Of a stretch of DNA of 64,000 nt, positions 2,996-25,502 are shown one piece after another; within the stretch, counting starts at the first letter, position 1, and every line of letters starts with the position of its first letter. A model generated the notes under the pieces. The model did no database searches. It was given only the letters and a program-made list of their open reading frames with translations, and was not told the origin of the DNA. Where the stretch lies: contig NZ_FUYF01000002.1 of assembly GCF_900167555.1 (NCBI RefSeq), positions 248,001-312,000 of the forward strand, in the 5' to 3' direction. Source of the DNA: Gemmiger formicilis (GTDB lineage Bacteria; Bacillota; Clostridia; Oscillospirales; Ruminococcaceae). The position numbers and the translations under genes were made by a program.

Positions 2996-3307
2996 ATGGC
3001 AGTCAAAGAAAAAATCAGAATCCGTCTGAAGAGCTACGATGCATCCCTGATCGATGCTGCGGCACAGAAGATCGTGGAGACCGCTAAGCGCACTGGCGCT
3101 CGCGTTTCCGGCCCGATCCCTCTGCCCACCGACAAGGAGGTCGTCACGATCCTGCGCGCTGTCCACAAGTACAAGGACAGCCGTGAGCAGTTCGAGACCC
3201 GCACGCACAAGCGTCTGATCGACATTCTGAAGCCGTCCAACAAGACGGTCGAGGCTCTCATGAGCCTGCAGCTCCCCGCCGGCGTTGACATCGAGATCAA
3301 GCTGTAA
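2996..3307 (+). CDS. rpsJ: 30S ribosomal protein S10
   Basis: 103 aa, full length for the family, with the typical opening IRIRLKSYD and the ending [13 protein letters not shown]10 sits in the 30S head and in other bacteria also acts as NusE in antitermination. First gene of the super-operon, with a strong Shine-Dalgarno site (TAGGAGG) 9 nt upstream. A 166-nt gap to rplC follows, unusually long for this operon. Confidence 0.98.
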
Positions 3308-3473
3308 TCGAGTTTCTACATTATAATGGCCGATACGCGCGGCCGTGATCCGTGAACGGTCGGCGTGTAATGGAAAGACACGGTAAAGCACCATCTCGCT
3401 GCAATGCAAACAGCGGAGAGGTCATGTTGATGGGAAACCACCAACCAATAACCTTTACAGGAGGACAAACACA
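3308..3473 (+). promoter_or_regulatory. 166-nt untranslated gap between rpsJ and rplC
   Basis: A long spacer inside an otherwise tightly packed operon. It holds an imperfect stem (about 3335-3372, arms near GCGGCCGT and ACGGTCGG) and a TATAAT at 3322-3327 lacking a matching -35. It could be an internal regulatory RNA or processing site; no function is shown. Confidence 0.35.
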
Positions 3474-4106
3474 ATGCAAAAAGGTATCATCGGCAAGAAG
3501 CTGGGCATGACCCAGCTGTTCGACGCCAACGGCAAGGTCGTTCCGGTCACCATCATCGAGGCCGGCCCCTGCACCGTCGTGCAGAAGAAGACCGTTGAGT
3601 CTGACGGCTACCAGGCTGTTCAGATGGGCTACGGCGAAGTGAGCGCCAAGAAGGTCAACAAGGCCGCCAAGGGTCACTTCGACAAGGCTGACGTCGCTCC
3701 CAAGCGCACCCTGCGTGAGTTCCGTTTTGATGACATCGCTGCCGTCAACGTCGGCGACATCCTCAAGGCTGATGTCTTCGCAGAGGGCGACAAGGTTGAC
3801 GTTGTCGGCACCAGCAAGGGCAAGGGCTATCAGGGCGTTATCAAGCGCTTTGGCCAGCACCGCCTGCGTGAGAGCCACGGCACCGGCCCTGTTGCACGTC
3901 ATGCCGGTTCTAACGGTTCCACTTCCAGCCCGTCCCGCGTGTTCAAGGGCAAGCGTCTGCCCGGCCACATGGGTGCGGTCCGCGTGACCGTCCAGAACCT
4001 GAGCATCGTTAAAGTCGATGCTGAGAACAATCTGATCGCGATCAAGGGTGCGATCCCCGGCCCGAAGGGCTCGGTCGTGACCATCCACGACAGCGTGAAA
4101 GCGTAA
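3474..4106 (+). CDS. rplC: 50S ribosomal protein L3
   Basis: 210 aa, full length. Begins [16 protein letters not shown], the standard L3 opening, and carries the [12 protein letters not shown] and RHAGSNGS signatures that reach toward the peptidyl transferase centre in known structures. AGGAGG lies 9 nt upstream of the ATG. 14 nt before rplD. Confidence 0.98.
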
Positions 4107-4120
4107 AGGAGGAAAACACA

Positions 4121-4741
4121 ATGGCACAGTTTGATGTCGTCGATATGAACGGCAAGAAGGTTTCCACCGTTGAGCTTTCCGACGCCGTGTTCGGGATCAC
4201 CCCGAACGAGAAGGCTGTCCACGAGGCAGTCGTCAACTTCCTGGCCAACCAGCGCCAGGGCACCCAGAACACCAAGATCCGCAAGGAAGTCCGCGGCGGC
4301 GGCAAGAAGCCTTGGCGCCAGAAGGGCACCGGCCACGCTCGTCAGGGCTCTATCCGTGCTCCGCAGTGGACCCACGGCGGTGTTGCTCTGGGCCCCAAGC
4401 CCCGCAGCTACTACTACACCATCAACAAGAAGGTCAAGCGTCTGGCTCTGCTCAGCGCCCTGTCTGACAAGGCTGCCAACGGCAACATGATCCTGGTCGA
4501 CAAGATCGCCGCTGACGAGTACAAGACCAAGACCGTCGTTGCTTTCCTGGCCGCTGTCGGCGCAGGCAAGAAGAACCTGATCGTCAATGACACTCTGGAC
4601 GCCAAGTTCGTCAAGAGCGCCGCCAACATCCCCGGTGTCCAGACCGCCGCTACCGGCATCAACACCTACGATGTTGTCAACGCCGACAAGCTCATCCTGA
4701 GCGTTGACGCTGCCAAGAAACTTGAGGAGGTATATGCGTGA
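4121..4741 (+). CDS. rplD: 50S ribosomal protein L4
   Basis: 206 aa. The loop GGKKPWRQKGTGHARQGS, which lines the peptide exit tunnel in known structures, is intact (about residues 65-82). In gamma-proteobacteria L4 represses its own operon through the S10 leader; whether it does so here cannot be read from the sequence. The stop codon overlaps the rplW start by one base (TGATG), implying translational coupling. Confidence 0.98.
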   Translation: MAQFDVVDMNGKKVSTVELSDAVFGITPNEKAVHEAVVNFLANQRQGTQNTKIRKEVRGGGKKPWRQKGTGHARQGSIRAPQWTHGGVALGPKPRSYYYTINKKVKRLALLSALSDKAANGNMILVDKIAADEYKTKTVVAFLAAVGAGKKNLIVNDTLDAKFVKSAANIPGVQTAATGINTYDVVNADKLILSVDAAKKLEEVYA

Positions 4742-18284: not shown

Positions 18285-18626
18285 ATGCCCGGTACCCGTA
18301 AACTCGGTCGTGCCACCGACAGCCGCAACGCTATGCTGCGCGCTATGGTGACCTACCTGTTTGAGAACGGCAAGATCGAGACCACCGTTACCCGCGCCAA
18401 GGAAGTTCGTTCCATGGCCGAGAAGATGGTCACCCTCGGTAAGCAGGACGATCTGCACGCAAAGCGTCAGGTCTTCTCCTACATCACCAAGGAGGACATT
18501 GCCAAGAAGGTCATTGATGAGATCGGCCCCAAGTACGCTGACCGCAATGGCGGCTACACCCGCATCTACAAGACCGGCCCTCGTCGCGGCGACGCCGCCG
18601 AGATGGCTATCATCGAGCTGGTCTGA
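18285..18626 (+). CDS. rplQ: 50S ribosomal protein L17
   Basis: 113 aa, the short bacterial form. Opening [20 protein letters not shown] and closing [20 protein letters not shown]. Last gene of the super-operon; AAGGAG upstream and a terminator 25 nt downstream. Confidence 0.98.
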
Positions 18627-18650
18627 TTAGTCAGATAACTTGATAAAAAG

Positions 18651-18690
18651 ACACCGCTTGCCCGCAAGGGCAGGCGGTGTTTTTGTTTTG
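18651..18690 (+). terminator. Intrinsic terminator of the ribosomal super-operon
   Basis: 13-bp stem (one G-T pair) from ACACCGC through GCCC, GCAA loop, back to GCGGTGT at 18680, followed by TTTTTGTTTT. Ideal position after rplQ. Confidence 0.95.
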
Positions 18691-18707
18691 ATGAACTGCA
18701 GGACTAT

Positions 18708-18856
18708 GTAGGGGCGAGCATTGCTCGCCCGTGGAACCTCATTATTATTGCCTTTTCGCCCTATGCCCTCCGTAGGGGCGGATTCCATATCTGCCCGCCC
18801 CGGCAGCAACCCGACACCGGGCCATCGCCCGTAGGGGCCGGGCATGCCCGGCCCGC
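18708..18856. repeat. GTAGGGGC-type palindromic repeats, three units
   Basis: Units at 18708-18731 (core GAGCATTGCTC), 18772-18801 (diverged core) and 18831-18856 (core GGGCATGCCC). All face the same way, unlike the head-to-head pairs elsewhere. Confidence 0.88.
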
Positions 18857-18904
18857 AGCTTACCCGTAAGCGAGCGTGCTGCGGGAAACGGGCAAAGCCC
18901 CACC

Positions 18905-19040
18905 GGCCATCGCTGGCGCTCGGCCACCTCCCCACCGCGTGGGGAGGCTCTTTGCGCCCTGCGGGCGAAGCAACAACGAACAAGCGGGTGCGTACCATAC
19001 GCTTCTTTTGTTCCTTCTTTGCAAAGAAGGAACCGAAGAA
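18905..19040. repeat. Family-B hairpin module and a 22-bp palindrome
   Basis: CACCTCCCCAC-CGC-GTGGGGAGGCTCTTTG (about 18921-18952) is the same module as at 48609. At 19011-19032 lies the perfect palindrome TTCCTTCTTT-GC-AAAGAAGGAA, continuing as an imperfect stem. Together with the repeats upstream it fills the non-coding space before the next promoter. Confidence 0.65.
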
Positions 19041-19092
19041 ATTCCAAAATTAGATAAAAACACGTTTTTACACAAATTTGACGGCGTACCCT

Positions 19093-19121
19093 TTGCGTTG
19101 CGTGCATATCTATGCTATAAT
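19093..19121 (+). promoter_or_regulatory. Sigma-A promoter of the CNNM/CorC gene
   Basis: TTGCGT (19093-19098), 17-bp spacer, TATAAT (19116-19121) with TGC extended -10. About 58 nt before the start codon. Confidence 0.82.
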
Positions 19122-19179
19122 AAATAAAATGTGTATTTGTACACATAAATAACATACAGAAAGAGTTGATAGTTCCCCA

Positions 19180-20451
19180 ATGGACGATGGCAGTATATTT
19201 ATGATCGTCGCACTGATAATCCTGATCGGTTTGTCTGCATTTTTCTCGGCGGCAGAAACAGCGTATAACTCGCTGAATGAGATCCGCCTGCGGAGCAAGG
19301 CGGAGGACGGCGACGCCAAAGCAGCGCACACGCTGGCGCTGGTTGAGCGCTACGACAGCCTGCTCAGCACCATTCTGATCGGCAATAACATTGTCAATAT
19401 CGGTGCGTCCTCTCTTGCCACCGTGCTGTTTACCCGCCTTGTCGGCGGCGTTTACGGCCCTACCGTCTCGACAATCGTCATGACCCTGCTGGTCTTGGCC
19501 TTTGGCGAAATCACCCCCAAGAGCATGGCCAAGGAAATGCCCGAAACAATGGCCATGGCCTTTGCCCCCGTGCTCAGTGCGCTGGTCACGATTTTCACAC
19601 CGCTGAACGCCCTGTTCGGTGCGTGGAAAAAGTTCCTTGCCAAACGGTTTGATACCGGAGAAAAGGACACCATCACCGAGGGTGAGCTGGTGACCATGGT
19701 CAGCGAGGCCGAGAAGGACGGCGAGCTGACGAACCGCGAGAGTGAGCTGATCCGCAGCGCCATCGAGTTTGACGACGTCGAGGCCCAGGATGTGCTGACC
19801 CCCCGCGTGGATGTTGTGGCCGTGGCCGACGACACCCCGATGGACGAGGTCACCGAGCGCTTTGCCGAGAGCGGCTATTCCCGTCTGCCGGTTTACCACG
19901 ATACGATTGACAATATCATCGGTGTCGTACATGAGAAGGACTGTTTTGCGGCCCTGCAGAAGCATGACAAAAATGTCAAGCTGGAGGACCTGATCGGCCC
20001 GACACTCTACACGACGAGCGTGACCCAGATTTCCGCGCTGCTGCGCACCCTGCGCGAGAGCAAGCACCACATGGCCGTCGTCGTCGACGAGTACGGCGGC
20101 ACGGCGGGCATCATCACGCTGGAGGATATTCTCGAGGAGCTGGTCGGTGAGATTTGGGACGAACACGACGACGTGGTCGAGGACGTCCGCCAGCAGTCCG
20201 ACGGCAGCTGGCTGATCTCCGGCAGCGCCAGTGTTGACGACACCGCCGACGAGCTGGGCATCAAGGAGGACGACGACATTGACGCCGTCGCCATCGGCGG
20301 CCTGGTCCAGGAGAAACTGAGCCGTCTGCCCAAGGTGGGCGATAAGTTCATCTGGGGCGACTTTGACGGCACCGTCACCCGCGCCACGAACCGCCGCGTC
20401 CAGGAGGTCCGCCTGACCCCCCGCAAGGTCCAGGACGAGAACGAGAAGTAA
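19180..20451 (+). CDS. CNNM/CorC-family transmembrane protein (hemolysin family, CBS domains)
   Basis: 423 aa. N-terminal CNNM (DUF21) domain with three to four membrane segments (residues 1 to about 150), two CBS domains (about 205-325, with the [26 protein letters not shown] signature split over the second one), and a C-terminal CorC_HlyC domain. Family members are linked to magnesium and cobalt efflux; the older name hemolysin does not imply a toxin. The Shine-Dalgarno site is weak. Single gene between its own promoter and terminator. Confidence 0.9.
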
Positions 20452-20469
20452 ATACCCATAAACCGCACT

Positions 20470-20506
20470 GCGCCCGCCGAGGGAAACCCGGCGGGCGCGT
20501 TTTTTG
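20470..20506 (+). terminator. Intrinsic terminator after the CNNM/CorC gene
   Basis: 10-bp stem GCGCCCGCCG / CGGCGGGCGC (20470-20479, 20489-20498), then GTTTTTT. Confidence 0.95.
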
Positions 20507-20578
20507 TGTAAAATTTTTGGGTCTATCAGCAAATGGACACTCTCTGTCTAAGGCAAAGGCTATACTGAAAGAAACCCT

Positions 20579-20610
20579 GTAGGGGCCAATGCTCGTCATC
20601 GGCCCGCGGG
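20579..20610. repeat. GTAGGGGC-type palindromic repeat, degenerate
   Basis: One unit reading GTAGGGGCC then an imperfect core around ATGCTCGTCAT and GGCCCGC; it abuts the stop codon of the XRE gene. Confidence 0.75.
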
Positions 20611-20967
20611 TCATTTCTCGGCCTCATCCAGCAAGCAACAAACCTGCTCAATCAGCTCCGCTACATGGGCGGCCTGTGCGGGGGAGAGCCGCCGCATACG
20701 GTCGGTCACATGCTGGATAGCCGCAGCACTGTCGAGGTCTGTGTTCGGTTCAGTCAACAAGAGTTCGGTCAGTGTAATGCCCAGCCCATCGCAGATGCGT
20801 TGCAATGTGTTCAGTGTGGGGCTGCGCATCCCGCGCTCCACATGGCCGAGAAACGCAGGGTTCATATCGCAGGAGAGCGCAAGCGATTCTTGGCTTAGGC
20901 CTTGCTTGAGACGCAGATATTTGATTTTTGCGCCAACCTCGCGCGCAAGCCGTGTGTTGTCAGTCAT
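20611..20967 (-). CDS. XRE-family transcriptional regulator
   Basis: 118 aa. HTH_3/Cro-C1 domain at about residues 13-67, with recognition-helix region SQESLALSCDMNPAFLGHVERG. The C-terminal about 45 residues form a helical segment rich in Ala and Gln, with a CCLLDEAEK end. Transcribed divergently from the three-gene AT-rich cassette. GGGAG precedes its ATG, and operator-like inverted repeats overlap both promoters, so it is the probable repressor of itself and of the cassette (inference). Confidence 0.9.
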   Translation of the reverse strand: MTDNTRLAREVGAKIKYLRLKQGLSQESLALSCDMNPAFLGHVERGMRSPTLNTLQRICDGLGITLTELLLTEPNTDLDSAAAIQHVTDRMRRLSPAQAAHVAELIEQVCCLLDEAEK

Positions 20968-20981
20968 GAGATGCTCTCCCT

Positions 20982-20996
20982 ACTTTATGATAGCAT
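20982..20996. promoter_or_regulatory. Operator-like half of a 15-bp inverted repeat (left)
   Basis: ACTTTATGATAGCAT, the exact reverse complement of 21055-21069. It lies 15 bp upstream of the XRE start codon and contains a possible -10 (TATCAT on the minus strand). A 10-bp palindrome AAGTATACTT lies at 21001-21010 beside it. Confidence 0.8.
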
Positions 20997-21035
20997 ATAC
21001 AAGTATACTTTAATGGGATTTAGTAGGAATAACAA

Positions 21036-21069
21036 TTTACAAAAGATAGTGAACATGCTATCATAAAGT
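21036..21069 (+). promoter_or_regulatory. Promoter with overlapping operator (right inverted-repeat half)
   Basis: TTTACA (21036-21041), 17-bp spacer, TATCAT (21059-21064). The -10 sits inside ATGCTATCATAAAGT (21055-21069), the inverted copy of 20982-20996. Binding of the XRE protein here would block transcription of the cassette. A possible second promoter lies downstream: a perfect 14-bp palindrome CAATTTGCAAATTG (21126-21139) overlaps a TTGAGA at 21137. Confidence 0.75.
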
Positions 21070-21209
21070 ATAGAAGTGAATCGTATGTGAAAAATTATAA
21101 CAAAAAAATAGAGAGGATTATTGTGCAATTTGCAAATTGAGATTTATTTCGGGGGGGTATGATAATTTATATGGACGGAAAGTAAAAGTAAGTTGAAAGG
21201 AGTTTATAA

Positions 21210-22058
21210 ATGTTTAACAATTCACTGAAAAAAGAAGCCCTGTCGATTCATGAGAAAGCGTTGAAAGAATATAATCAATCTTATCAAAGGATGACGGATT
21301 GGGCAGAAACACTTTATACACATCGTGTAGAAGCGGAAAACCAAATAAAGAAGATTGAACTCGTCGTCAACAGCATTGCCAATACTCCAAAAGAGTATGA
21401 CACAAAGATGGGGAATGTCCGTCAACAGCTTATAAATTTTCGTAAAACGCGGGAATATGCACAAGAAGCCTATGACGCGGCAGTAAAGGCAGGAACGAAC
21501 ATTGCTGGCGGTGCAGCGGCCGGATTGGGTGTGGCGGCTGTGGCACCAACGGCACTGATGGGGATTGCAACGACATTCGGCACAGCGGCTACCGGAACGG
21601 CAATCAGTGCGTTGTCTGGCGCGGCGGCACAAAAAGCGGCTGTAGCATGGTTGGGACGCACTTTTGCGAGCTTTGCAGTTACAGGCGGAACCGCGGGAAT
21701 GGCAGCGGGAAATGCTTTCCTTGCGCTTGCGGGGCCAGTTGGATGGGGAATTACAGCGGCAAGTACAGGAGTTTCGCTGATTACCATGACGAACAAGAAC
21801 AAGGAAATTGCAGATAAAGCAGTCAGCGAAGCAAAAGAAATCATAAAAGCAAGAGGCTCACTTGATGAAAGCGCAACTAAAATTTTACATCTTTCTATGA
21901 GAACAACTGCAATCGCAAAGCAGTTGCCAATGGAAAGAATAGAGAGCTTTATGAATGCAGATTACAAAAATCTGAGCGGTGAGGACCAGTACTTTCTGGG
22001 ACAAACGGTTGACCTTGTTGAAACACTTTCGGTTTTGTTGAATGAAACAGTCAGCTGA
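21210..22058 (+). CDS. Unknown protein with coiled-coil N-terminus and Gly/Ala-rich hydrophobic core
   Basis: 282 aa, no family recognised. Residues 1-90 are helical and charged (coiled-coil-like). About 95-200 are strongly hydrophobic and rich in small residues, with GxxxG-like spacing (for example AGGAAAGLGVAA and TAGMAAGNAFLALAGPVGWG), a pattern of glycine-zipper membrane insertion. The remainder is helical and polar. First gene of a three-gene cassette after an XRE-controlled promoter, with AAAGGAG before the ATG. Base composition is far lower in GC than the flanks (20 of 60 bases G/C in 21241-21300), suggesting transfer. A pore or membrane-anchored role is only an inference. Confidence 0.75.
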   Translation: MFNNSLKKEALSIHEKALKEYNQSYQRMTDWAETLYTHRVEAENQIKKIELVVNSIANTPKEYDTKMGNVRQQLINFRKTREYAQEAYDAAVKAGTNIAGGAAAGLGVAAVAPTALMGIATTFGTAATGTAISALSGAAAQKAAVAWLGRTFASFAVTGGTAGMAAGNAFLALAGPVGWGITAASTGVSLITMTNKNKEIADKAVSEAKEIIKARGSLDESATKILHLSMRTTAIAKQLPMERIESFMNADYKNLSGEDQYFLGQTVDLVETLSVLLNETVS

Positions 22059-22071
22059 TAAGGAGAAAGCG

Positions 22072-23523
22072 ATGGATGCTGATGCAAAAGAGAGAATTGC
22101 GAAAAGTACGCAAGAACAGGCGGTGGCGGCTTGGACGCATTGGCTGAATGAGGAAGTACAGAAAAAAGTCGATGCAATGCTGGCAGAAGAGGACGGAAAC
22201 TTGGAAAAAGCGCTTGCAGAAATGCAGGAACTAAAAAAGTTTGTGTCTAACCCTGAACATATTTTGGGTGCTGTGCAGACGAAACACGGAGAGGTCGCCG
22301 AGCATGTTCAGGTAAATGTTTCAAATGCTAGAAATTATATGAAAGGGCTGGCGGCAGAATATACATTTGAGGGTGTCGGAAGAACGGCACCGGAAGATTA
22401 TTTGAAAAACGGTGCACAGATACAGTCGAAATTTTACAACGGTGCAAAGCACACGATGGAGGCAGTAAAAGGGCATCTTGATAAGTACCCTGATTTTGTA
22501 AAAAATGGCGGAAGCTATGACATTCCGCAGGATCAGTATAATGCAATCGTTCGGGTGCTGAATTTGCAGAAGGAAAGCCCATCATCTCTCAGTAAAGAAC
22601 AATGGAGACTGGCAGAAGCGGCAAAGCAATTCCAACAGGATACAGGGCTGAACTTTGGAAGAGATGTTTCGCCGGCGATTGCGGATTATTCGGATGTACA
22701 ACTGGGGAAAATTGATGATACCATCCGAAAAGAAGAACAGTCTCTGCACAAAACAGACCAAGAAAAGCGTGCGGAAATTTATGAGCAGGGAAAACCGAAC
22801 TTCAAGCAGGGCGCACAAGCGGCAGGTGTCGGTGCGGTGTTGGAGGGCGGAATGGCCTTCTGCCTTGAAATTGCGAGAAAGTGTAAGGAGGGTAAGAAAC
22901 TTCAAAATTTTACAGAGGAAGATTGGTGCGAAATCGGTAAAAAGACCGGCTATGGAACCGTTAAGGGCGGCATTCGAGGCGCGGCGGTCTACCTGCTGTC
23001 CAACTTTACCGTTACGCCCGAAAATGTGGCGTCTGCTTATGTGACTGCCGTTTTTGGCGTTGGGGAGCAGCTGAACGCGTACCGTACAGGGAAAATCACA
23101 CAAGAAGATTTCCTGATTAACAGTGAGACGCTCTGCCTAGATGTTACGGTAAGTGCGATTGCGTCTATCGTGGGCCAGACGGTTATTCCGGTGCCTATAT
23201 TGGGGGCACTGGTTGGTAATGTGGCAGGCGAGTATGTATATGAGATTTGCAAACAATACAACGCAGAAAAAGAACAGAAACTTGTCAGCACATATAGATT
23301 GCAGATGGCAGAACTTGGAACGGAGATAAACCTGCGGTGCATTGCGTTTGCCAACGAAACCATGAAAAAGACGAAAGAGTTCGAATCGCTGGTGGACATA
23401 GCTTTTGATGAAGATGTGAATATCGCGTTTGAAGGCGCGATAAAGCTTGCTCGAAGTGCAGGTGTAAAAGAAGAAAAAATTCTGAAAACAAAGGCAGATA
23501 TTGACGCATATTTCTTGAATTGA
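22072..23523 (+). CDS. Unknown large helical protein with hydrophobic glycine-rich middle
   Basis: 483 aa, no family recognised. I start at 22072 (MDADAKERIAKS) because AAGGAG lies 8 nt upstream; an ATG at 22042 would overlap the previous gene and lacks a site. Residues 1-240 are polar, mostly helical and Lys/Glu/Gln-rich. About 250-375 alternate hydrophobic and Gly-rich segments (AAGVGAVLEGGMAFCLEIA, then a stretch ending VPILGALVGNVAGEYVYEI) that could enter or lie on a membrane. The C-terminal 110 residues are helical. No P-loop, nuclease or protease motif was found. Spaced 13 nt from both neighbours, so one transcript is likely. Confidence 0.75.
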   Translation: MDADAKERIAKSTQEQAVAAWTHWLNEEVQKKVDAMLAEEDGNLEKALAEMQELKKFVSNPEHILGAVQTKHGEVAEHVQVNVSNARNYMKGLAAEYTFEGVGRTAPEDYLKNGAQIQSKFYNGAKHTMEAVKGHLDKYPDFVKNGGSYDIPQDQYNAIVRVLNLQKESPSSLSKEQWRLAEAAKQFQQDTGLNFGRDVSPAIADYSDVQLGKIDDTIRKEEQSLHKTDQEKRAEIYEQGKPNFKQGAQAAGVGAVLEGGMAFCLEIARKCKEGKKLQNFTEEDWCEIGKKTGYGTVKGGIRGAAVYLLSNFTVTPENVASAYVTAVFGVGEQLNAYRTGKITQEDFLINSETLCLDVTVSAIASIVGQTVIPVPILGALVGNVAGEYVYEICKQYNAEKEQKLVSTYRLQMAELGTEINLRCIAFANETMKKTKEFESLVDIAFDEDVNIAFEGAIKLARSAGVKEEKILKTKADIDAYFLN

Positions 23524-23536
23524 AAGGAAAACAATC

Positions 23537-24034
23537 ATGGATTTGAATAAGGAATTAAGAGAACTGGAACTGACAGAACTGAACGAAAAGGCAGAAAATG
23601 CTGTGGCGGTTGCTGTAGCATCTACGGCAGTAACGGGCTTTGTGCCTATCCCGTTTGCCGATGCCCCGCTTTTGATTGCCCAGCAGGTAGGACTGATGGC
23701 GTCGATTTGCGCCATTTATAAAATTGACATTGAAAAAGACGGCCTGAAAATGTTGGCAACTGCCGCCATCGGTGCAGGCGGGGCTGTGGTTGTGGGCAAG
23801 ACACTGGCAACGAATCTGCTGAAAATGATTCCGGGCATTGGCACTGCGGCGGGAGGAGTAGTTTCCGGCGGTACAGCTGGTGTGGTGACGCTGGCAATGG
23901 GAAAAGCATTTATTGAAGTGTGCAAGATGGTTAAGGTCGGAAAATTGAGCGAGGCGGATTTGACATCTTCCAAGGGTACGGAAATTATGAAACAACAATT
24001 CCGTGAACAACTGACGAAAGCAAAGAAAAAGTAA
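23537..24034 (+). CDS. Stand-alone DUF697 (YcjF-type) membrane protein
   Basis: 165 aa. The DUF697 pattern covers residues about 18-132: FVPIPFADAPLLIAQQVGLM, then IYKIDIEK, then NLLKMIPGIGTAAGGVVSGG and MGKAFIEV. In most known proteins this domain is fused to an Era-like GTPase; here no GTPase domain is present and none is encoded in the cassette. The string GAVVVGKT (82-89) matches a Walker A pattern by spacing but lies in the hydrophobic segment, so I do not treat it as a nucleotide site. Last gene of the XRE-controlled cassette. Confidence 0.85.
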   Translation: MDLNKELRELELTELNEKAENAVAVAVASTAVTGFVPIPFADAPLLIAQQVGLMASICAIYKIDIEKDGLKMLATAAIGAGGAVVVGKTLATNLLKMIPGIGTAAGGVVSGGTAGVVTLAMGKAFIEVCKMVKVGKLSEADLTSSKGTEIMKQQFREQLTKAKKK

Positions 24035-24039
24035 ACGGA

Positions 24040-24067
24040 AAGCGGCATCGGTCAGGTGCCGCTTTTT
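24040..24067 (+). terminator. Terminator of the XRE-controlled cassette
   Basis: AAGCGGCA / TGCCGCTT stem (24040-24047, 24057-24064) running into TTTTT, 6 nt after the DUF697 stop codon. Confidence 0.9.
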
Positions 24068-24329
24068 ATGTGGTGAGAATATTAGAAAGTGTTATGGAAT
24101 ACTGTGAAGATCATAGTTTGCAAATTTTTTGTAAAATCCGCCAGAATTTTTTGCTACTTGCGTGGCTTACAATGTTTAAACCGCGGAAAATGTCGAAAAT
24201 GCAGAAATTCTTGCCTTGCAGGGCTGATTTTATGCCGCCGCTGTGCTACAATACTAGTAAATGGGGCATTGCGGCACGCCGCGCCCCTGTGGTATTGACA
24301 ACACAAGATGGAAGTAAGGAGTACCTGTA
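24068..24329 (+). promoter_or_regulatory. Intergenic region with the promoter of the PRPP synthetase gene
   Basis: AT-rich region with no convincing gene. An extended -10, TGTGC-TACAAT (TACAAT at 24247-24252), fits the recurrent promoter type of this genome, but the -35 (CTGATT at 24224) is poor. The 78-nt leader has no obvious structure. Confidence 0.6.
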
Positions 24330-25502
24330 ATGGCTGAACAGAATCTTGGCCCGCGTGATTTCTTTGCCAAAGAGGACGCAATCGCCGATCTCGGTCTGAT
24401 TGCCTGTCCCGGCGCAGAGGAGCTTTGCAAACTCGTTGACAGTCACCTCGTCCGCTGGGCGCGCGAGGTCGGCAACACGGATGTCGACAGCTTCATCATC
24501 CCGTCCGACTGCCCGCGTTTCCAGTCCGGCGACGCAAAGGGTCTCGTCAAGGCGTCCACCCGCGGCGACGACCTGTATATCTTCGTCGATCCGGGCAACT
24601 ACAGCGTTACCTATCAGTTGTTCGGGTATGAGAACCATCTCTCCCCGGACGATCACTTCCAGAACCTGATGCGTCTGATCCAGGCCGTTGCAGGCCGCGC
24701 CCACCGCATCAGCGTCATCATGCCCAGCCTGTACGGCGGCCGCCAGCATCGCCGCGTCAGCCGTGAGAGCCTGGACTGCGCCTTTGCGCTGCAGCAGCTG
24801 CGCGACGTCGGTGTCAAGAACATCATCACCTTTGACGCCCATGACCCCCGCGTTATGAACGCCGTGCCCACCATGAGCTTCGACAACGTCATGCCCACCT
24901 ATCAGGTGCTCAAGTGCCTGCTGCATCATGTGCCGGACGTTTCCTTCCACAAGGATAACTTCATGATCGTCTCTCCCGACGAGGGCGCCATGAACCGCAA
25001 CATGTATTATTCCAGCGTGCTGGGCTGCAACCTGGGCATGTTCTACAAGCGCCGCGACTACAGCCGCATCGTCAACGGCCGCAACCCCATCGTCGCCCAT
25101 GAGTATCTGGGCGAGAGCGTTGAGGGCAAGGACGTCTTTATCGCCGACGACATCATCGCCTCCGGCGAGTCCATGCTGGACATCGCCTACGAGCTGAAGA
25201 TGCGCGGCGCCCGCAACATCTTCACCTGCTGCACCTTCCCGCTGTTCACCGCCGGTCTGGAGAAGTTCGACAAGGCCTACAACGACGGCATCATCAAGGC
25301 CGTTCTGGGCACGAACCTGACCTACCGCAAGCCGGAACTGCTGGAGCGCGAGTGGTACTACGACGTCGACGTCTCGAAGTATACCGCCTACTTCATCGCG
25401 GCCATCAACCACGACAAGAGCGTTTCCTCCATCATTGACCCGATGACCAAGATCCGCACACTGCTGGACAAGCACGGCATCCCCATGGGCGGCGAGCAGT
25501 AA
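24330..25502 (+). CDS. prs: Ribose-phosphate pyrophosphokinase (long form)
   Basis: 390 aa. Makes PRPP from ribose 5-phosphate and ATP, feeding purine, pyrimidine, His, Trp and NAD synthesis. Longer than the common 310-320 aa form. The ATP-binding segment YGGRQHRR (135-142), the TFDAHDPRV region (167-175) and the PRPP-binding loop VFIADDIIASGESML (269-283) are visible; the loop has ASGES where the short form has DTGGT, as in the long clostridial subfamily. AAGGAG precedes the ATG. Terminator 16 nt downstream. Confidence 0.93.
   Translation: MAEQNLGPRDFFAKEDAIADLGLIACPGAEELCKLVDSHLVRWAREVGNTDVDSFIIPSDCPRFQSGDAKGLVKASTRGDDLYIFVDPGNYSVTYQLFGYENHLSPDDHFQNLMRLIQAVAGRAHRISVIMPSLYGGRQHRRVSRESLDCAFALQQLRDVGVKNIITFDAHDPRVMNAVPTMSFDNVMPTYQVLKCLLHHVPDVSFHKDNFMIVSPDEGAMNRNMYYSSVLGCNLGMFYKRRDYSRIVNGRNPIVAHEYLGESVEGKDVFIADDIIASGESMLDIAYELKMRGARNIFTCCTFPLFTAGLEKFDKAYNDGIIKAVLGTNLTYRKPELLEREWYYDVDVSKYTAYFIAAINHDKSVSSIIDPMTKIRTLLDKHGIPMGGEQ

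Follow-up and report, generated by a model that had tools for sequence, protein, structure and literature searches.

What does a stand-alone DUF697 protein do in a compact cassette that holds no GTPase? The question is raised by a 64,000-nucleotide stretch of the Gemmiger formicilis genome (3.24 Mb in 92 contigs; assembly GCF_900167555.1, contig NZ_FUYF01000002.1, positions 248,001 to 312,000; hereafter the window), in which three tightly packed genes, termed here A, B and C, follow a divergent XRE-family regulator gene between corC and prs. An earlier note on this DNA had read the cassette as an acquired, repressed module with a membrane-acting function, defence being one suggestion. We propose that the cassette is a form of PDC-M09, a candidate phage-defence system, here with three genes, in which a repressed, membrane-held nuclease complex would cut incoming phage DNA, a reading to which we assign a probability of roughly 0.5. 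Below, L numbers denote the loci compared and G numbers the genomes.

The first two proteins, described in the earlier note as unrecognised, both match PADLOC-DB 2.0.0 candidate profiles (PDC-M09A and PDC-M09B) over their full length and in the same order. Since the gene pair is already catalogued in PADLOC, it is not a new kind of system. The PADLOC entry carries no description, no paper naming PDC-M09 turned up in our literature search, and one paper presents the PDC set as candidates from guilt-by-embedding, mostly without validation (PMC12988326). A passage search of the DefensePredictor main text (PMC13092281) gave no mention of PDC, Tim17 or WYL, and a literature search on DUF697 and defence gave nothing on this subject, judging from titles and abstract openings. 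Several points appear to be new, in that we did not find them described in the literature searched: B as a nuclease, the interchange of its nuclease half, DUF697 as a subunit, and control through an XRE operator. The DUF697 gene and the XRE regulator with its palindrome are the window's additions to the catalogued pair.

Two peptide patterns, with confirmation by tblastn, served to find relatives among 84,980 species, each represented by one genome. This yielded 104 relatives from Bacillota, Pseudomonadota, Cyanobacteriota and Bacteroidota, the best 80 of which were used for the relative counts. A lies directly 5' of B in 77 of the 80 loci, with a median gap of 2 nucleotides (nt); L027 reaches a contig edge, and L053 and L087 have no A at that place. 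C adjoins B downstream in 12 of the 80 (L025 and L026 being near-copies) and could have been missed in three further loci, where little DNA follows B. Scattered, vertically inherited genes would have contradicted the earlier note; these adjacencies do not contradict it. A quick tree places the 11 C-bearing rows, window included, within one supported branch of 14 rows; it requires three changes, so that a single gain of C followed by losses and multiple gains are both possible. The gene for DUF697 is an addition belonging to a single branch of Bacillota and not the centre of the system.

The proposed mechanism hangs on protein B, which is laid out as an N-terminal helix, a PD-(D/E)xK-like core (residues 68–168), further helices, a glycine-rich membrane region (241–396) and C-terminal helices. 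PD-(D/E)xK cores run in the order alpha-beta-beta-beta-alpha-beta. The B model, judged by eye, fits this order, with a helix (68–90), a first strand of two residues (97–98), two more strands (110–112 and 115–119), a helix (125–138) and a strand (148–151), followed by a helix at 153–168; the predicted local distance difference test score (pLDDT) is 95–98 from residue 71 on and 86 for residues 61–70. All 84 B sequences share five identical residues (E77, D109, Q118, K120 and H135), and among them the PD-(D/E)xK residue pattern can be read, with E77 as the acidic residue of the first helix, then D109, then Q118-x-K120 in the next strand. Judging from sequence and model, B is likely to be a PD-(D/E)xK-type nuclease, which would provide a concrete mechanism with two residues, D109 and K120, to probe. 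In the distant relatives L002 and L010 the core is replaced by what looks by eye like an HNH sequence, and the membrane region still matches; such an exchange of nuclease type ahead of a shared membrane module hints at a design of general use.

A 19-residue window with a hydropathy of at least 1.6 occurs in all 84 B proteins, and this, together with the model, makes it likely that B sits at the membrane, where its own glycine-rich helical region would tether it to the inner membrane. The B model also matches chains in TIM22, TIM23 and complex I structures, which we take to be Tim17/Tim22/Tim23 and NDUFA11, with the membrane region modelled at a pLDDT of 50–82. The PRAT motif of the Tim17 family, in the form printed in PMC5072337, was found in none of the 84 B sequences; that study proposed the Tim17-type fold to be exclusive to eukaryotes. 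We regard as improbable, yet worth stating, the possibility that these are immune nucleases built on a Tim17/22/23-type four-helix glycine-rich membrane module, which would form a gate-like assembly with A, and with DUF697 where present, at or near the site of phage DNA entry and would carry an interchangeable PD-(D/E)xK or HNH head; if so, a fold that one study proposed as confined to eukaryotes (PMC5072337) would have a bacterial counterpart in antiviral immunity.

The nearest studied case in logic, and not in family, is SNIPE (Nature 2026, PMC13190303), in which a nuclease is fixed at the membrane, as predicted for B, and variable parts surround a conserved nuclease. SNIPE has DUF4041 and GIY-YIG domains, neither of which is found in B at a Pfam E-value of up to 1, and B, unlike SNIPE, is accompanied by one partner gene or more; the membrane hold of B is predicted here from hydropathy and the model. 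The PDC-M09 complex would wait at the membrane and, we tentatively suggest, cut phage DNA as it enters or shortly afterwards, foreign and own DNA being told apart by place and not by sequence. If true, B would represent another, unrelated family among the membrane-bound nucleases, a class described only recently, that recognise phage DNA by its place of entry. A purely membrane-acting function, as previously envisaged, is not supported given the predicted nuclease core in B.

Other matches to B were weak. Among the 25 of 68 Pfam families listed for the 84 B proteins, DUF3482 appeared in 12 (best E-value 0.0014) and DUF456 in 9. Against solved structures, the best three matches of the B profile lay in its helical part, to a spider latroinsectotoxin chain (E-value 0.0098) and botulinum neurotoxin chains (0.03–0.04), and were taken as chance. 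Separately, operons of the enterobacterial type possess a third gene of about 840 residues (L052:9393-11912, L057:9420-11942, L096:3471-5993 and, from annotation only, L138:13471-15993). The products from L052, L057 and L096 show weak matches to the B profile in both its core and its membrane part, and that of L052 has a hydrophobic N-terminus and, by eye, an H-G-x-x-A-E element.

Protein A, the usual partner of B, is modelled with long helices at residues 2–55, 61–93, 193–237 and 257–277, forming coiled-coil arms around a Gly/Ala-rich, charge-poor head (about 94–195; mostly at pLDDT <50 over about 95–190). The earlier note had described coiled coils with Gly/Ala-rich cores for both first proteins; B, besides its membrane region, has a nuclease-like core as well. 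Across 81 A proteins the longest run free of charged residues measures 98 residues at the median and 36 at the least, and 72 of the proteins contain a 19-residue window of hydropathy of at least 1.6. We suggest that A, through its coiled coil and a head that may insert into the membrane, most likely acts as a scaffold or trigger assembling with B; that the two form one complex is probable. The main rival to a DNA-cutting complex starts from the same protein: A, with C, could be a pore- or leak-forming killer, B could sense phage DNA or degrade the cell's own, and the cell would die by abortive infection before phage release. The outline of A, with long helices and a hydrophobic head, does resemble that of alpha-helical pore formers, and control by XRE or WYL proteins would suit a dangerous product; the A model gave no significant fold match, with the ClyA and Ahl chains listed by Foldseek standing at E-values of 0.28–1.3. 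We consider abortive killing through the A head unlikely, and prefer the membrane-held nuclease complex.

Iterated profiles made A proteins match the B profile (A of L097, 64 bits), as if the two were duplicates; this was rejected as profile contamination, since a profile from the clean B alignment matched no full-length A protein at E-values up to 1. Two small proteins, in L037 (173 residues) and L049 (248 residues), weakly match both clean profiles. Variants of A and unusual neighbours were also seen. Both coil ends are kept in a tandem extra copy in L018 (6161-7048), with the Gly/Ala head replaced, and in L020 (7300-7998), with the head missing. Directly 5' of A, L007 (3904-4470) encodes a protein of XRE type whose hydrophobic tail is rich in Gly/Ala, and the C-terminal end of a 625-residue dynamin-like GTPase in L014 (37-1914) weakly matches the A profile (E-value 5e-4). 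The A proteins of L024 (6542-7972) and L033 (2320-3885) are extended at the N-terminus by about 190 and 245 residues, respectively, and the extension in L033 is rich in paired cysteines and, by eye, zinc ribbon-like.

As regards the question posed at the outset, C scores 46.8 bits for DUF697 against a Pfam cut-off of 27.7 and contains several hydrophobic stretches, and a 19-residue window of hydropathy of at least 1.6 is present in 12 of 12 C proteins. DUF697 usually follows an Era-like GTPase domain; in contrast, C stands alone, as had been noted, and its DUF697 is the only one found in the genome. No GTPase match was obtained in A, B or C at E-values up to 1. A GTPase partner acting in trans was considered and rejected, there being no second DUF697 in the genome and Dynamin_N matches covering only 36 and 33 profile positions. 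Eleos (LeoA, LeoBC) is a dynamin-like system, and A weakly matches part of LeoBC (E-value 1.6e-5). We suggest that C is an extra, lineage-specific membrane subunit of the complex, which would give DUF697 a testable role away from GTPases.

The case for immunity rests on context. Flanks of 83 loci were surveyed by scanning 129 of 424 open reading frames (ORFs). Among the 25 of 113 families listed, strong PADLOC matches were to PbeA, GajB, BrxA, AbiEi, ZorA and RTasHel, each in one or two proteins. In 11 of 75 loci the gene 5' of A, taken as the longest ORF ending within 700 nt, encodes a WYL domain. In Escherichia coli ET896 (73% of the query covered) the order is a YafY-family regulator, of the WYL type, then A and B, with TrlF about 4 kb and BREX genes about 7 kb away. 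WYL regulators are reported from defence systems in two papers (PMC9122601, PMC9122588). E. coli PSJ-29 has a helix-turn-helix regulator, A and B, with a SIR2 protein within about 4 kb, and on a Leptolyngbya plasmid A-B overlaps a convergent restriction endonuclease gene beside an AAA ATPase, called McrBC-like in another strain. The operon lies amid insertion sequences in E. coli ET729 and near tellurium-resistance genes on a Klebsiella plasmid, where no defence system was named in the stretch fetched; nor was one named in the Rhodococcus plasmid region. The defence-type neighbours in a number of relatives support the earlier suggestion, and we estimate that the system very probably serves in defence against mobile elements. 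A colicin-DNase/WHH nuclease gene lies directly 5' of A in L043 (6054-6977), this domain occurring in 2 of 75 upstream genes.

The carriage of these genes could also point to a system that restricts plasmids or other mobile DNA, or that is itself an addiction module of islands and plasmids, phages not being the main target. The B protein of Yersinia proxima (L059) as query found 64 plasmid records, 46 of them from Klebsiella and 30 typed as conjugative, and E. coli copies reside in islands with integrase, AlpA-type or CbtA/YeeU toxin-antitoxin genes. Defence systems are commonly carried on plasmids and islands, and dedicated phage-defence systems lie near several relatives, which argues against this alternative; we hold it to be improbable. 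Window B as query found 60 plasmid records and one phage record. Neither window A nor the Gly/Ala head of L006 (with the BLAST low-complexity filter on) found anything among plasmids. The phage record (MT838879.1, 'Bacteriophage sp.', 4.8 kb, unannotated) holds a B homologue at 3253-4509, with 35% identity over 83% of the query. Among E. coli genomes, at least 80% of the L059 B gene DNA is covered in 5 of 5,426, and less in 6 more. With the Rhodococcus plasmid adding Actinomycetota, B homologues extend to five phyla and to Klebsiella plasmids, yet the annotated copies inspected are all called 'hypothetical'.

Several observations weigh against the picture of a membrane-held defence nuclease. 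H72, G73, A76 and E77 fall within a peptide pattern by which many of the 84 sequences were collected, which makes their invariance partly a product of selection; D109, Q118, K120 and H135 lie outside it. The distant relatives L009, L011 and the second copy of L086 keep G-x-x-A-E, D and K, with S in place of Q in two of them. Neither the B sequence nor its whole-protein model gave a match to a solved or curated nuclease; in the fold search with that model no nuclease family was prominent among the best 50 matches of each list, which is not proof of absence. In its membrane region the B model has the lower confidence given above (about 50–82), and profile comparison found no kinship among the three proteins (hhalign probabilities of 1.2% for A-B, 0.4% for A-C and 1.4% for B-C). 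Finally, some of the scanned flanking ORFs are, by Pfam, ordinary metabolic genes, and the neighbour counts are for the relatives alone.

That the A-B-C cassette was acquired is almost certain. In the two closest of the 29 prs loci of the genus (L102–L130) the match to the window ends at 20454 and restarts at 24117 (L102), or ends at 20455 and restarts at 24119 (L103); both have DNA of their own in the corC-prs gap (113 and 103 bp, respectively), and the cassette site is empty in both. Nine further loci (L104–L112) are matched from the prs side out to 24117-24119, and less of the upstream region is matched in the remaining 18. Full-length B occurs in 1 of 35 genus genomes, namely its own (G017 has a weak 82-residue match), and A likewise in its own genome, with one weak match in G006. 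B was found in 4 of 295 genomes of the order (own included, one weakly) and, by PADLOC profile, in 9 of 398 of the phylum (own included, six weakly) and in none of 14 control genomes. The cassette has a GC content of 0.467, compared with 0.610 in the remainder of the window and a minimum of 0.569 among 531 overlapping stretches of the same length elsewhere; that of the XRE gene is 0.571, so the low GC claimed for the whole cassette is confined to A-C. A chance acquisition with a role in the envelope or in DNA maintenance, and none in immunity, would suit the housekeeping look of the window's neighbours (corC-like, prs), and is very unlikely given the patchy distribution and the defence context elsewhere.

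The layout of the locus (Table 1) agrees with the divergent XRE gene and packed genes originally described, A-B and B-C being spaced by 13 bp each; an earlier ATG lies at 22042 in the B open frame. The inverted repeat, previously given as 15 bp and as covering both -10 regions, is perfect over 16 bp and extends to 21 bp at 90% identity. With as many as 3 mismatches allowed, its arm was observed three times in the window, two of these perfect, compared with an expectation of 0.15. The + strand -10 is covered; this hexamer is also found in the left arm on the - strand, where the promoter scan passed no site, so the second -10 is a matter of symmetry. From this layout the XRE protein probably represses the operon, and would keep it low by binding two operator arms over the promoter.

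Table 1. Features of the cassette and its borders (window coordinates)
Feature	Position	Strand	Basis and remarks
Acquired segment, corC to prs	20455..24117		Homology breaks against L102/L103; GC 0.467; left edge uncertain, 20455 to about 20520
XRE-family (HTH_3) gene, divergent	20611..20967	-	Pfam HTH_3 E 1.2e-13; probable autorepressor
Inverted repeat left arm, probable operator	20981..20996		Perfect 16-bp repeat
Inverted repeat right arm	21055..21070		Perfect 16-bp repeat; overlaps -10 of + strand promoter
Sigma-70-like promoter of A-B-C operon, TTTACA-17-TATCAT	21036..21064	+	Consensus match only
Gene A (PDC-M09A), 282 residues	21210..22058	+	PADLOC E 4.6e-91; model; hydropathy
Gene B (PDC-M09B), 483 residues	22072..23523	+	PADLOC E 4e-160; invariant residues; model
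Gene C, stand-alone DUF697 membrane-type protein, 165 residues	23537..24034	+	Pfam DUF697 E 3.4e-12; alignment of 12
Intrinsic terminator hairpin 3' of C	24037..24067 (hairpin 24033-24072)	+	-20.1 kcal/mol, z -4.75

The hairpin after C, which a simple terminator scan missed, agrees with the terminator first proposed there. An operator conserved across relatives was also considered and discarded. The 10-base core of the palindrome, window copies aside, occurs in 1 of 132 loci (L039, once, inside B), and the XRE-bearing loci L018, L023, L025 and L029 have different, weaker inverted repeats at the corresponding place; this operator is therefore seen only here. The surrounding rplQ-prs gap (18285-24330) is variable in the genus, corC being present in the window, L102 and L103, and the apparent end of rplQ lying directly before prs in at least six relatives (L104, L105, L106, L109, L111 and L112). 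Farther upstream, an S10-Clostridia ribosomal protein leader RNA lies at 2703-2791.

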